Source: an uncultured Lachnospiraceae bacterium
Lineage (GTDB): Bacteria > Bacillota > Clostridia > Lachnospirales > Lachnospiraceae
Assembly: GCA_949935685.1 (NCBI GenBank)
Contig: CATLGN010000024.1
Coordinates: 1 to 12,566 of the forward strand
DNA: 12,566 nt
Reading direction: 5' to 3'
Shown: piece by piece, positions 1,842 to 8,777 of the stretch
How the letters are laid out: each line of letters starts with the position of its first letter
Numbering within the stretch: position 1 is the first letter of the stretch
Translations under genes and position numbers: made by a program
The notes under the pieces: model-generated
What the model was told of the DNA's origin: nothing
The model's input: only the letters and a program-made list of their open reading frames with translations
Databases searched by the model: none

Positions 1842-3035
1842 ATGCTGGCGAGTCATTATCAGACAATGCTGCAGGGAAAATCGGTAATCCGTGAACTGTC
1901 AGAGTTTGCCACGGCCCGGGGAAAGGAGATCGGATATGAGAATGTCTTTGACTTTAGTCTGGGGAATCCTTCGGTTCCGGTGCCGGAGGCCGTGACACGG
2001 ACAATGGTGCGTTTGCTGCAGGAGGGCGATCCCATGGCGGTTCACGGCTACAGCCCTTCGCTTGGCATTACCGCGGTGCGGGAAAAGGTGGCGGCTTCGC
2101 TGCAAAAAAGGTCCGGCATGCCATATGAAGCGAAGCATATCTTTATGACTTCGGGCGCGGCCGGTGCGATTGCGCATGCGTTGCGGGCGGTAACGGAGCC
2201 CGGCGATGAAGTGCTGACATTTGCGCCGTGTTTTTCGGAATATGTTCCTTATGTGAATGGAACGGGGGCCATATTGAAGATGGTGCCTGCGGATACGGAA
2301 CGTTTTCAGATTCATTTTCCACGGCTGGAAGAAATGCTTTCCCGGCGCGTGGCCGCCGTACTGATCAATACGCCGAACAACCCGTCGGGTGTTGTGTACT
2401 CCGCACAGACGCTGCAAAAGCTGGCGGAGATATTGGAGAAAAAGTCGGCGGAATACGGACATACGATCTATCTGATCTCGGACGAGCCGTATCGGGAAAT
2501 CGTATTTGCGGGTGTGGATGCGCCTTTTGTGTCAGTGTATTATGCCAATACGCTGATGTGTTATTCTTTTTCCAAATCGCTTTCCCTGCCGGGCGAGCGG
2601 ATTGGATATGTGGCGGTGAGCCCGGCATGTGAAGCGGGAGAAACGATCATTCAAATGTGCGGGCAGATTTCGCGGGAGACGGGACATAACTGCCCGGCAT
2701 CACTCATACAGCTTGCGGTGGCGGAGCATCTTGATCTGACTTCGGACATAGCGGTTTATGAGACAAACAAAATGATTTTATATCGGGAACTGATCGATCT
2801 TGGCTTTACCTGTGTGGAACCCGGCGGAACTTTCTACATTTTCCCGAAGGCGCCGGAGGAAGACGCGGTCTCATTTTGCAGAAAAGGCAGAGATTATGAT
2901 CTGATTATGGTACCGGGGGACGGATTTGGCTGTCCCGGGTATTTCCGGATGGCGTATTGCATCGATACGGAAAAGGTGGAGCGCTCTCTGCCTGTGCTGC
3001 GCAGATTTATGGCGGAATGTTATCCTGACCGGTAA
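1842..3035 (+). CDS. PLP-dependent class I/II aminotransferase
   Basis: A 397-residue fold-type I aminotransferase of the aspartate aminotransferase superfamily, which moves an amino group between an amino acid and a 2-oxo acid using pyridoxal phosphate. The motifs appear in order: N-terminal FSLGNPSVPVP (38-48), the phosphate-site region TSGAAGAI (103-110), NTPNNPSG (176-183, with the cofactor-contacting Asn), SDEPY (213-217, Asp pairing with the pyridine nitrogen), SFSKS (242-246, K245 as the Schiff-base lysine), and R369 near the C-terminus, in the place of the substrate-carboxylate arginine. Length is normal for the family. The start is supported by a GAGGGGG ribosome binding site and the promoter at 1758-1786. 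It is followed after 19 nt by the patatin gene, so the two are probably co-transcribed. The amino acid used cannot be read from the sequence; sequences like this are usually annotated only as generic aminotransferases. Confidence 0.95.
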   Translation: MLASHYQTMLQGKSVIRELSEFATARGKEIGYENVFDFSLGNPSVPVPEAVTRTMVRLLQEGDPMAVHGYSPSLGITAVREKVAASLQKRSGMPYEAKHIFMTSGAAGAIAHALRAVTEPGDEVLTFAPCFSEYVPYVNGTGAILKMVPADTERFQIHFPRLEEMLSRRVAAVLINTPNNPSGVVYSAQTLQKLAEILEKKSAEYGHTIYLISDEPYREIVFAGVDAPFVSVYYANTLMCYSFSKSLSLPGERIGYVAVSPACEAGETIIQMCGQISRETGHNCPASLIQLAVAEHLDLTSDIAVYETNKMILYRELIDLGFTCVEPGGTFYIFPKAPEEDAVSFCRKGRDYDLIMVPGDGFGCPGYFRMAYCIDTEKVERSLPVLRRFMAECYPDR

Positions 3036-3054
3036 AGTGAGAAAGAAGGGGCTT

Positions 3055-3906
3055 ATGTATCAGGCAGGTCTGGTTTTGGAAGGCGGCGGCATGAAGGGAA
3101 TGTATACATGCGGCGTGCTGGAGTTTTTTATGGAAAAAGGGCTGTGGTTTTCGTCCTGCTACGGCGTATCGGCGGGCGCCTGTCATATGTGCAGCTATCT
3201 GTCCGGGCAGAAAAAACGCGCTTTTCATGTGGCGGTGGATTATTTAGAGTGCAGGGATTATTGCAGTGCAAGAAGCCTTTTGCTGACCGGCAATCTGTTT
3301 CATGAGGACTTTTGTTATGACCTGATTCCCAATTGGCTCAATCCCTATGATTATGAAGCGTTCGGCCGGTATGAGGGAAAAGCGTGGGCTGTTGTCACCA
3401 ATATTGTCACCGGCAGAGCGGAATATCTGCTCTTGCAGGATATGAGACGAGACATTAAGGCGGTTCAGGCTTCCAGTTCTCTTCCGCTTGTGTCCAGAAA
3501 CGTAAAGATCGGAAATAAGCTGTATCTGGACGGTTCTCTTGCGGATTCCATACCGATCCGGCGGTCCATTCTGGACGGCAACCGGAAAAACGTGGTTATA
3601 CTGACAAAAGAGGTGGGGTACCGGAAGGAAAAATCAGCCGCGCTCGGACTGATCCGGGCGGCTTATCTGCGCTACCCGAAGGTATATGAACGGATGAAAA
3701 ACAGGCATATTTCCTATAATAAGACATTAGACTATTTAGAAGAGCAGGAGAGAGAAGGCAGGGCCTTTGTAATCAGACCGCAGACGGCCAGCGGCGTAAA
3801 GCGGATTGAAAAAGACCGGGAAAAGCTGACAGCGTTATATGAGCAGGGCTACCGGGAGGCAGAGGCAAGTTATGAGGCGCTGCTGGACTATCTGGCGCAG
3901 CCGTAA
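3055..3906 (+). CDS. Patatin-like phospholipase family protein
   Basis: A 283-residue patatin-like lipid acyl hydrolase of the bacterial YjjU type. The Ser-Asp dyad is intact: an oxyanion-hole glycine stretch EGGGMKG (9-15), the nucleophile elbow GVSAG (37-41, Ser39) and the catalytic Asp in LDGSLADSIP (158-167, Asp159). The family cleaves acyl chains from phospholipids or related lipids. No signal peptide or membrane segment is seen, so action at the inner face of the membrane is likely. The frame is open 129 nt further upstream, into the aminotransferase gene, but the ATG at 3055 is chosen because it begins the conserved YQAGLVLEGGG strand and has a GAAGGGG ribosome binding site 4-8 nt ahead. 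It lies 19 nt after the aminotransferase and 16 nt before uppP. Natural substrate is unknown. Confidence 0.93.
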   Translation: MYQAGLVLEGGGMKGMYTCGVLEFFMEKGLWFSSCYGVSAGACHMCSYLSGQKKRAFHVAVDYLECRDYCSARSLLLTGNLFHEDFCYDLIPNWLNPYDYEAFGRYEGKAWAVVTNIVTGRAEYLLLQDMRRDIKAVQASSSLPLVSRNVKIGNKLYLDGSLADSIPIRRSILDGNRKNVVILTKEVGYRKEKSAALGLIRAAYLRYPKVYERMKNRHISYNKTLDYLEEQEREGRAFVIRPQTASGVKRIEKDREKLTALYEQGYREAEASYEALLDYLAQP

Positions 3907-6227: not shown

Positions 6228-7895
6228 ATGACGCTGGACGATTTGGGAATGCTGTTTCAGTTTATCGGCGGGCTCGGGCTGTTTTTATACGGTATGCATA
6301 TTATGGCGGACGGCCTGCAGAAATCTGCCGGAGACAGGGTAAAATCCCTGATGGGATTTCTGACGAGAAACCGGTTGGTGGCAGTGGCTGTCGGAGCGGG
6401 CATCACCGCTCTGATTCAGAGCAGTTCCGCGACGACCGTTATGGTGGTAGGCTTTGTCAACGCGGGGATGCTCTCGCTGACACAGGCTGTCGGCGTTATC
6501 ATGGGCGCCAATATCGGGACAACCATTACCGCCTGGATTGTTTCCCTGAGCGAATGGGGCAGTCTGCTGAAACCGGAATTTTTTGCGCCGCTTGTGGTGG
6601 GAGCGGGCGCTTTCCTGCTGCTGTTTGCCGGAAATGAGAGAAGGAAAAAGGCGGGGGAGATTATGACGGGTTTTGGCATCCTTTTTATCGGACTGAGTTT
6701 TATGTCCGATGCCATAACGCCGTACAGAGATGCCCCGATCTTTTCGGATGCTTTCCGCGTACTGGGGGGAAATCCGCTGCTGGCGGTTTTGACCGGCGCT
6801 GTCGTGACGGCGATTATTCAGAGTTCGTCGGCATCGGTGGGTATTTTGCAGACGCTGGCGATGAACGGCGTGGTAAACTGGCAGTCGGCGGTTTTTATTA
6901 TGCTCGGACAGAATATCGGGACGTGCGTGACGGCCATTTTATCCGGTGCAGGCGCGGGGAAGAATGCAAAACGCGCTTCTGTGATTCATCTTCTTTTTAA
7001 TGTAATCGGCAGTCTTTGGTTCGGCGTTGTCATGTTTGCTTTTTTCCGGATTCGGGCGGATATGGCGGTGCGGGCGATCGGGAGTGTGGAGATTTCACTC
7101 TTCCATACATTTTTTAACATTGTCAATACGCTGGTCATGTTTCCTTTTGCAAACGGGCTTGTGCGGATTGCCGAGATCATGATCGCGGACGACGGCCGGG
7201 GCGAAACGGATGAAAACGGCATTGTGGGTCAGATGGGGCGGAAACTTGACCGGCGAATTTTAAACAATCCCACGCTGGCGATTGAGACTGCGGTCGCAGA
7301 GGCGGTCGGTATCGGTATTCTGGCGCGGGACAATATGAAAACGGCGATGGGGGCGCTGCTGGAAAATGACAAGGAGCAAATCCGGCAGGTATTGCAGATG
7401 GAGGAAAATATCAACCGGCTGGTGACGATGCTGACTTCGTTTCTCGTGGAGGTGGATAATCTGTCTCTGACGGAGGCGCAGCACCGGATGATAAAAAATC
7501 TGTTTTATACGATCAGCGATATGGAGCGGATCGGGGATCACAGTGAAAACATTGCGGAGCTGGCGGAAGCAAAGCGGAAGGACAAAATCCGGTTTTCCGA
7601 CAGGGGGCAGAAGGACATGGAAAAAATGTATGATATAACACTGCATACGCTGGAAGCCGCGCTTGAGGCAAGAGAGCTGGGCAGCGCGGAAGCGGTCAGA
7701 CGGACGGAAAACACGGAGAAAATGGTCGATAAACTGGAACGGGAACTGCGGGATAAGCATATCCAGCGCCTTTCCAAAGGAAAATGCAGTCCCGAGAGCG
7801 GCATTATTTTTCTCGATGTGCTGAGCAATCTGGAGCGCATTGCAGACCACGCGGACAATATCGCGGGCTATGTTGCCGCGGAGCGGCGGGGCTGA
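6228..7895 (+). CDS. Na/Pi cotransporter family protein with PhoU-like C-terminal domain
   Basis: A 555-residue protein of the NptA/YjbB (SLC34-like) family, which couples inorganic phosphate movement to Na+. The membrane half (about 8-320) has the two inverted repeats expected of the family: QSSSATT (64-70) with GANIGTT (93-99), and QSSSAS (198-203) with GQNIGT (227-232). The cytosolic half (about 345-550) is a helical PhoU-like domain with two copies of its metal-binding signature, DMERIGDHSENI (431-442) and LERIADHADNI (535-545). PhoU domains usually tie transport to phosphate signalling. The ATG start has GGGGAGAG about 5 nt upstream. The leader from the -10 is roughly 100 nt, with a small palindrome (TCTCCC-G-GGGAGA, 6210-6222) over the ribosome binding site. 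No U-tract terminator follows the stop; instead the long hairpin begins 35 nt later. Confidence 0.95.
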   Translation: MTLDDLGMLFQFIGGLGLFLYGMHIMADGLQKSAGDRVKSLMGFLTRNRLVAVAVGAGITALIQSSSATTVMVVGFVNAGMLSLTQAVGVIMGANIGTTITAWIVSLSEWGSLLKPEFFAPLVVGAGAFLLLFAGNERRKKAGEIMTGFGILFIGLSFMSDAITPYRDAPIFSDAFRVLGGNPLLAVLTGAVVTAIIQSSSASVGILQTLAMNGVVNWQSAVFIMLGQNIGTCVTAILSGAGAGKNAKRASVIHLLFNVIGSLWFGVVMFAFFRIRADMAVRAIGSVEISLFHTFFNIVNTLVMFPFANGLVRIAEIMIADDGRGETDENGIVGQMGRKLDRRILNNPTLAIETAVAEAVGIGILARDNMKTAMGALLENDKEQIRQVLQMEENINRLVTMLTSFLVEVDNLSLTEAQHRMIKNLFYTISDMERIGDHSENIAELAEAKRKDKIRFSDRGQKDMEKMYDITLHTLEAALEARELGSAEAVRRTENTEKMVDKLERELRDKHIQRLSKGKCSPESGIIFLDVLSNLERIADHADNIAGYVAAERRG

Positions 7896-7930
7896 ATGGA
7901 CGGCATTGTGAACGTTTCATGAACTGAGAT

Positions 7931-8231
7931 GGACAGAAACGGAAAAGCACTGTAGTGCACTATGCTTCCGACAGAAGCGTACATCCCGTCGGTGCGCCTT
8001 GCGGAGGGTATTAGCGGTTCTTGGCGGTGCGCCACAGCCTGCAATTTCCGGACACGGATGTCCGGAAAAGGCCGACTTGCGCCCGGACGGCGCATAGAGG
8101 TCGATTGCACACCGGCCTGCATCTGCTGTCGCAACGCTTAGAACCGCTTATGCCCGCAGACCGGTGTATCGACGGGATGTACGCCTCTGTCGGAACGCCA
8201 CGATCCTGTCACGGCTTTTCCGTTTCTGTTC
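7931..8231 (+). repeat. ~300-nt long imperfect inverted repeat; candidate structured RNA or palindromic element
   Basis: Almost all of the 465-nt gap between the phosphate transporter and the next gene is one giant hairpin. Outer stem: 7931-7948 with 8214-8231 (18 pairs, 16 of them a perfect run). After an internal loop of 17 and 18 nt, the middle stem is 7966-7991 with 8170-8195 (25 of 26 pairs). It runs straight on without any indel into an inner stem, 7992-8031 with 8130-8169 (27 Watson-Crick, 5 G.U, 8 mismatches). The apex holds short helices (8034-8038/8125-8129 and 8040-8043/8118-8121), a perfect 10-bp hairpin with a CGGA loop (8045-8068) and a second hairpin (8078-8094). The element is GC-rich and lacks a ribosome binding site and a good U-tract. 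No clear target-site duplication flanks it. It could be a structured non-coding RNA, a 3' UTR structure of the transporter mRNA or a MITE-like palindrome. The pairing is certain; the function is unknown. Confidence 0.8.
8045..8068 (+). repeat. Perfect apical hairpin inside the long inverted repeat
   Basis: TTTCCGGACA (8045-8054) pairs perfectly with TGTCCGGAAA (8059-8068) around a CGGA tetraloop, forming one of two hairpins at the top of the long stem. The second is TGCGCC/GGCGCA (8078-8083 with 8089-8094). Confidence 0.8.
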
Positions 8232-8258
8232 TGGTCGTGCCGTGATGCCGCCCCTTTC

Positions 8259-8287
8259 TTGACAATCCCGGTGTACTTTGCTATACT
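8259..8287 (+). promoter_or_regulatory. Promoter of the Lys/Ala-rich protein gene
   Basis: TTGACA (8259-8264), a 17-bp spacer and TATACT (8282-8287) form a near-consensus sigma-A promoter starting 28 nt after the long inverted repeat. The leader to the ATG at 8361 is about 67 nt. Confidence 0.8.
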
Positions 8288-8360
8288 GCTCTAAGCATCT
8301 GGGTATTACATAATAGGAGCTGTAAATCAACAGAGGGAACAAATCCCGGAGGAGATAGTT

Positions 8361-8777
8361 ATGAAAGAGACAAAGAAAACAACGAAAACGTCCGCAAAAG
8401 CGAAAAGCGAGCCTGTCAGGGAAACGGTGAAAGCGGAGGCGACAAAAGTGGAAAACGCTGTTAAGAGTGCAGCCGAAAAGGCAAAGCCGGCAGTGAAAGC
8501 GGCAGCGGAAAAAGCAAAACCGGTCGTTAAGGCGGCAAAAGAGAAGGTGGAAAAGGCGGTTTCGACCAAGAAAAACACAGCGGAGAAGATTACAGTACAG
8601 TTCAGCGGTAAGTCGTATTCCACCGATGATCTTGTGAAAATTGCCAAAGATGTGTGGAAATACGATTTGGAAAGAGATGAAAACGATTTTAAATCCGTAG
8701 AATTGTTTGTGAAGCCGGAAGAAAGCATGGTTTATTATGTGATTAACGAAGATGTGCTTGGAAGCTTTGCCATCTGA
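8361..8777 (+). CDS. Small Lys/Ala-rich protein with conserved C-terminal domain, function unknown
   Basis: A 138-residue protein in two parts. Residues 1-76 are almost wholly Lys, Ala, Glu, Val and Pro, with a repeating 11-residue unit AAEKAKPAVKA / AAEKAKPVVKA (38-59) that predicts a charged amphipathic helix, as in histone-H1-like or LEA-like tails. Residues 77-138 form a compact acidic alpha/beta domain (ITVQFSGKSYSTDDLVKIAK, then a helix, then VELFVKP and MVYYVINEDV strands). The C-terminal part resembles a small domain of unknown function seen in Lachnospiraceae, from memory DUF6465; this was not verified. No signal peptide is seen, so it is likely cytosolic. A strong GGAGGAGA site and promoter precede it, and a terminator follows. 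DNA binding through the basic tail is possible but unsupported by any direct evidence. Confidence 0.85.
   Translation: MKETKKTTKTSAKAKSEPVRETVKAEATKVENAVKSAAEKAKPAVKAAAEKAKPVVKAAKEKVEKAVSTKKNTAEKITVQFSGKSYSTDDLVKIAKDVWKYDLERDENDFKSVELFVKPEESMVYYVINEDVLGSFAI

Follow-up and report, generated by a model that had tools for sequence, protein, structure and literature searches.

Several short, intergenic, foldable repeats of high copy number, namely bcr1, BOX, REP/BIME and their kin, resemble the element described here in these respects, but differ from it in their ends and in their sequence. TwoAYGGAY RNA (Rfam RF01731) comes from a computational screen of 2010, whose table classes it as a probable RNA that is unlikely to be cis-regulatory (PMC2864571). 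It appears in a paper of 2020 as a case in which covariation lengthens an annotated helix (PMC7657543), Rfam 15 reports two further covarying pairs for it (PMC11701678), and its link to CsrA was predicted in 2014 (PMC4333381). The consensus bound by CsrA is given as RUACARGGAUGU, in which ACA and GGA are fully conserved and GGA lies preferably in a hairpin loop (PMC4347634). TwoAYGGAY is placed by Rfam in clan CL00106 together with CsrB, and the K-12 csrB stretch that we fetched was reported in the same clan. The RNA family, miniature inverted-repeat transposable elements (MITEs) and the CsrA prediction are thus already known. In the one literature collection searched, no title or abstract was found that presents TwoAYGGAY as mobile or as the centre of two mini-transposons.

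The DNA analysed here, called the window, is the whole stretch of 12,566 nucleotides from an uncultured Lachnospiraceae bacterium (G000), in which a long hairpin separates a phosphate transporter gene from the next gene. We read this hairpin, with a probability of roughly 0.55, as part of a miniature transposable element that bears a CsrA-type RNA with two sites, the binding of CsrA being predicted. An earlier note on the same DNA had called the hairpin an unexplained element of about 300 nt and had not recognised in it any named RNA class; the Rfam scan, however, identified TwoAYGGAY RNA, the sole Rfam match in the window, with a full-length match to the model (Table 1). The simple claim of novelty, which that note had itself tied to the lack of a known Rfam family, therefore falls. 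The hairpin itself is real. The RNA fold of 7900-8260 on the + strand reaches -193 kcal/mol, compared with a mean of -129.8 (s.d. 5.1) for shuffled sequences (z = -12.3; 0 of 100 shuffles as good), and the opposite strand gives z = -8.2. In the minimum-energy structure, 7931-8031 is paired with 8130-8231, as had been proposed, by 85 pairs, of which 77 are Watson-Crick and eight are G-U; the counts offered before were 69 and 6. The apex holds a tetraloop hairpin and a second hairpin, with the loops CGGA and CGGAC. The GGA of hairpin 2 begins at 8085, 29 nt past that of hairpin 1 (8056). Of the two loops, ACGGAU in hairpin 1 fits the AYGGAY motif, and CCGGAC in hairpin 2 keeps GGA with a first base other than A. 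Hairpin 1 has the sequence ACACGGAUGU, which resembles the ACARGGAUGU part of the CsrA consensus.

Table 1. Features of the hairpin locus and of its two neighbouring genes (positions in the window)
Feature	Position	Strand	Basis or remark
Na/Pi cotransporter with PhoU domain, upstream gene	6228..7895	+	PF02690 217.5 bits, PF01895 99.1 bits; TIGR00704
Element remnant	7905..8233	+	Lacks both tips (24 nt on the left side, 47 nt on the right) compared with L021 and L067
Outer left palindrome arm	7931..7998	+	Inside arm pairing 7931-8031 / 8130-8231
TwoAYGGAY RNA core	7999..8162	+	RF01731, cmscan 88.7 bits, gathering score 43, E = 1.2e-14, model 1-168 of 168
Hairpin 1	8045..8068	+	10-bp stem, loop CGGA (8055-8058); minimum-energy structure and Rfam alignment
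Hairpin 2	8078..8094	+	6-bp stem, loop CGGAC (8084-8088); minimum-energy structure
Outer right palindrome arm	8163..8231	+	Inside arm pairing 7931-8031 / 8130-8231
Promoter-like site TTGACA-17-TATACT (putative)	8259..8287	+	11 of 12 consensus matches; 25 nt past the remnant
DUF6465 protein gene, downstream	8361..8777	+	PF20069 94.8 bits

At the locus itself, no terminator-like site was found in 7850-8360, the core is spanned by unconvincing open reading frames (ORFs) only, and there is no transposase inside the window. Two alternatives had been offered, a large structured non-coding RNA and a MITE-like mobile palindrome, and each proves to describe part of the element: its core is an Rfam RNA family, and its relatives form a family marked by inverted ends and by target duplications of 10 bp. 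Nor does the element stand alone, for there are 55 core matches in the same genome, 54 of them above the cut-off. The earlier interpretation is, overall, partly supported.

The source genome is an assembly of 2.0 Mb in 361 contigs, 69% complete. When its copies were compared together with their surroundings, the full relatives were found to be about 400 bp long (396-402 bp in those that bear the core) and to carry CACGACAAACGCATGAATGAAC and its inverse as terminal inverted repeats. A search of the genome with 18 bases of this end gave 86 occurrences with at most three mismatches, and the reversed control gave none. Target duplications were counted for the 28 elements with both ends in the stretches fetched: 12 of the 28 have flanking 10-mers with at least eight identical bases, a level reached by 0.15% of mismatched pairs, and for every other duplication length from 4 to 14 at most one of the 28 elements reaches 80% identity. 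The remaining 16 elements bounded by the repeat show no clear duplication. Short length, terminal inverted repeats, target duplications, many copies and the lack of a convincing gene across the core are all found in this family, and these are the properties of MITEs. Not every member carries the whole core. Ten of the 28 elements were compared with the full ones, and five of them lack a core match and five hold a partial core; one coreless element of 152 bp (L135) has a perfect duplication and matches the full elements in the arms only, so that movement may not require the core, provided that its loss did not follow insertion. At seven loci (L002, L007, L010, L015, L019, L022 and L058), core pairs lie head to head about 200-500 bp apart, some with what looks by eye like a remnant of the same terminal repeat; these are possible composite elements with two cores.

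The copy in the window was compared with full elements of the same genome. By blastn it is 93.3% and 94.2% identical over 329 bp to L021 and L067, respectively, at their positions 25-353 of 400, and in this comparison it showed neither an inverted-repeat tip nor a target duplication. It is a decayed member of the MITE family, in our reading one of the ISAs1 type. Another relative (L020) is 88% identical in a match that begins at 7893, on the first base of the transporter's stop codon (7893-7895); the end of that gene may therefore abut or include element sequence.

The assignment to ISAs1 is based on another organism. A scan of named genomes for the first inverted repeat yielded 19 stretches. 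In one of them (L220), from Candidatus Scybalomonas excrementavium, two copies of the repeat bound 1257 bp (2147-3403) with a single ORF of 374 amino acids, an ISAs1-family transposase (NF033564, 337.7 bits, cut-off 70), and GGAAAAAATT stands on both sides as a 10-bp duplication. In its ends and in its duplication length this ISAs1 element agrees with the family copies of G000. In a Defluviitaleaceae MAG (L216, 582-1641), a segment of 1060 bp is flanked by two copies of that terminal repeat and contains two short ORFs that look by eye like pieces of an ISAs1 transposase; the gene looks broken. Rfam scans of 16 of the 19 inverted-repeat stretches found the core in none of the 16. A family search for ISAs1 transposases gave no match in G000 or in nine other genomes of its genus (together G000-G009), matches in seven of 61 genomes (G000 and relatives) and matches also in three of 14 control genomes. 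The mobiliser is thus absent from the G000 assembly, either lost or not assembled in a genome that is 69% complete. A transposase acting in trans would spread the copies, although none was found in G000.

The core is widely and unevenly distributed. It is found in nine of the same 61 genomes, and within the genus in five of ten (G000, G001, G002, G006 and G008), the other five having none. In a sample of the family, 65 of 397 genomes hold it (E <= 0.001; 63 above the cut-off), spread over 58 of 334 genera, and in a sample of the phylum 51 of 398 genomes (34 above the cut-off). Because at most six candidates per genome were scored in these two samples and stricter filters were applied, the copy numbers are lower bounds and some of the absences may be misses. 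The window element has no match in the plasmid and phage collections; for an element of G002 the only match was a stretch of 73 bp in two plasmid records of Lachnospira eligens, and it matched no phage. Among viral contigs, five stretches carry the first inverted repeat and two the core hairpin, but no RF01731 match was obtained in the three of the five repeat-bearing and the two of the two hairpin-bearing stretches that were scanned with Rfam. The end repeat of the second mini-element, described next, was not found in viral contigs.

Other ends, GATTCGGGTGTCAAAAG, flank the same core in G002. This second mini-element has the end repeat GATTCGGGTGTCAAAAGG and 7-bp duplications: in G001, G002 and G006, five of 14 elements have duplications with at least six of seven bases identical (5% of mismatched pairs). 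In G208, a genome of another genus, 20 elements were chosen among the matches listed; 14 of these 20 have such duplications, and 17% of mismatched pairs do so too, since the target is itself conserved. All 17 of the G208 elements of 312-316 bp hold the core (100-110 bits), and the other three, of 108 bp, have no core match (E <= 0.001). The target of this mini-element is TA-rich, its 7 bp resembling CTATAAG (G208 loci L256-L275; G398), and among the matches listed there are also repeat pairs about 108 bp and about 161 bp apart (G208, G398). No autonomous element of this second type was recognised by eye among the matches listed for eight genomes and among those for G006 and G336. In other genomes of the family, further arm sequences surround the core, and in seven copies from outside the family (L245-L251) the arms reach at most 58 nt, except for one alignment of 144 nt at 62% identity. 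In short, the core is a module that two or more kinds of mini-element contain, and it perhaps also stands outside such elements.

The GGA loops, on which the predicted binding of CsrA depends, are found mainly on one strand. Counting GGA in a hairpin loop plus two bases on each side, in one copy from each of 45 genomes, we found two GGA loops on the sense strand in 33 genomes, one in nine, none in two and three in one. The antisense strand has no such loop in 36 of the 45, and two GGA loops occurred in 10 of 225 shuffled sequences. The motif ACANGGAY is present in 23 of 45 genomes on the sense strand versus one of 45 on the antisense strand, and in 36 of the 54 G000 copies. In G002 it is present in only one of 21 copies, and ANGGAY somewhere in 20 of the 21. 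Seven of the 45 genomes (G002, G031, G032, G128, G202, G273 and G339) have CGA in place of GGA in loop 1, which would remove one site of the CsrA type.

Were the palindrome important as DNA alone, G-T mismatches should be as common in it as A-C mismatches. In the outer arms of the copies of G000, G001, G002, G006 and G008 they are (256 G-U versus 264 A-C), whereas the core stem of the same copies has 100 G-U versus 21 A-C, an excess that is inflated because the copies are related. With one copy per genome the ratio falls to 24:13 in the core (45 genomes, p = 0.10), the arms having 56:73 (32 genomes), and a strong claim of selection at the RNA level was therefore dropped. Mismatches confined to single copies gave G-U:A-C ratios of 13:18 in G000, 9:3 in G002 and 10:3 in G001, and distinct types of core position gave 11:13, 8:2 and 8:1, respectively; the private mismatches of G000 suggest that its copies may not be under selection at their sites. 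We regard this as moderate evidence that the core, and not the arms, has been kept as RNA, though in G000 not clearly in each inserted copy.

These ratios bear on the most serious alternative, namely that palindrome and core are together a selfish MITE with no role as RNA, the core looking conserved only through the kinship of its copies. The lack of a G-U excess among the single-copy mismatches of G000 is what such an element would show, and so are the coreless derivatives, the lack of strand bias and the lack of a promoter signal in G000 (both given below). This alternative, however, does not fit easily with a core that is common to two kinds of mini-element with different ends, with GGA loops that keep to one strand, or with the seven copies from outside the family, all of which keep two GGA hairpin loops (7 of 7) despite short or weak arms. 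We consider it improbable, although it deserves more credence than any of the other alternatives.

The position of the copies among genes was studied in 139 copies, with paired cores counted separately (54 from G000, 43 from three relatives and 42 from other genomes). Of these, 115 could be placed between called genes; both neighbours lie on the strand of the core in 33 cases and on the opposite strand in 46, and they are divergent in 21 and convergent in 15. The difference between 33 sense and 46 antisense cases has p = 0.18, and a cruder gene caller gave 34 sense, 37 antisense, 18 divergent and 29 convergent. At the G000 sites the better caller found 14 divergent and no convergent pairs and the cruder one 11 and seven, so this detail is unsure because the callers disagree. 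With neither caller is there a sense bias, which argues against a role as leader or 3'-UTR. Outward-facing promoter-like sites (at most two mismatches, within 80 bp) were found at 15 of 55 element ends, compared with none of 55 at 160-240 bp and four of 55 facing inward; the excess is due in part to the intergenic location. As for an internal promoter, none stands out in the arms of G000, in which the matches do not exceed those in a single shuffle of each arm, and in the arms of G002 the matches are slightly above the shuffle. Expression of the element is therefore presumed.

It may also be supposed that the copies are stand-alone genes for small RNAs of the CsrB kind, with promoters of their own, multiplied by transposition. 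Their membership in the CsrB clan and their indifference to the direction of neighbouring genes, as expected of independent genes, agree with this idea. Nevertheless, the promoter matches in the G000 arms, which remain at shuffle level (slightly better in G002), and the window, which lacks a terminator-like site, speak against it, and we think it unlikely. The Rfam type label suggests instead a cis-regulatory RNA of the neighbouring genes, and the core in the window does lie on the coding strand between two + genes. In the window, however, the promoter-like site of the downstream gene follows the element; moreover, the discoverers' own table disfavours this role, and the 115 placed copies lack strand bias (33 sense versus 46 antisense), for which reason it was set aside as very unlikely. 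Least probable of all is a structure acting as single-stranded DNA, such as a hairpin that serves as a recognition site for a transposase or for replication proteins, since this would suit the good folding of both strands and the symmetry of mismatch types in the outer arms, but not the inverted ends, target duplications and ISAs1 element with the same ends, which point to a DDE transposase, nor the coreless elements that are also duplicated, nor the excess of G-U over A-C in the core, weak once corrected.

The partner that the preferred reading of a mobile, two-site CsrA-type RNA demands is available in the source genome. CsrA is encoded in G000 (C61, E = 1.8e-25), and in the locus around it (L155) csrA stands beside a FliW-like ORF and genes that look flagellar by eye in their translations. 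In the family sample, CsrA (PF02599) was found in 210 of 397 genomes (208 above the cut-off), namely in 62 of the 65 core-bearing versus 148 of the 332 coreless ones (Fisher p = 4e-16, kinship being ignored), and in the set of 61 genomes in all nine core-bearing and in 34 of the 52 others (one below the cut-off). However, flagellin (PF00669), present in 213 of 397 genomes including 64 of the 65 with the core, predicts the core as well, and thus CsrA and motility are inseparable here: both proteins were found together in 206 of 397 genomes, and the core is found in none of the four genomes with CsrA only and in two of the seven with flagellin only. The core is therefore associated with motile, CsrA-bearing lineages as a whole. 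In one genome, G351 (one contig, 99% complete, one core match), neither CsrA nor flagellin was found; it is the lone exception.

A mobile element carrying a CsrA-type RNA might work as follows. Its palindrome has outer arms that vary between species, set around a conserved TwoAYGGAY module of about 165 nt. Transcription may reach the element as read-through of a neighbouring gene or may start at an unseen promoter; the transcribed module would fold so that its two GGA loops could hold a CsrA dimer, and each copy would then be a small decoy for CsrA. Going further, we tentatively suggest that mini-transposons of at least two kinds, with different ends, have acquired a CsrA-binding module in motile Clostridia, spreading CsrA sites, and that bursts of transposition add dozens of decoys and may reset motility and metabolism; this larger proposal is possible rather than probable. 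The finding of two carriers would explain the copy number and the patchy spread of TwoAYGGAY and argues against the label 'Cis-reg', and it opens the prediction on CsrA to a direct test. Should CsrA indeed bind, transposons would be distributing decoys of a global regulator, a possible route for quick change in a regulatory network.

As compared with the known systems, the locus agrees with RF01731 in its full-length match to the model and in its two neighbouring hairpins with GGA loops on one strand. This situation is different from that of the Rfam entry, the type of which is 'Cis-reg', in that the core here lies in the middle of a mobile palindrome longer than itself, has more than 50 copies in one genome without strand bias, and shows CCGGAC instead of AYGGAY in hairpin 2 of the window. 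It resembles MITEs derived from ISAs1 in having the ends and the 10-bp duplication of the ISAs1 element of L220 and in lacking a convincing gene across its core, but it differs from them in having a conserved RNA module aboard, which is also found in a mini-element with different ends. With the RNAs of the CsrB/RsmB type (CL00106) it has in common the Rfam clan, the GGA motifs in hairpin loops and a CsrA encoded in the genome. Unlike those RNAs, it has two sites and not many, no promoter was found for it, and its binding of CsrA is predicted; it exists, moreover, as dispersed mobile copies and not as one gene.
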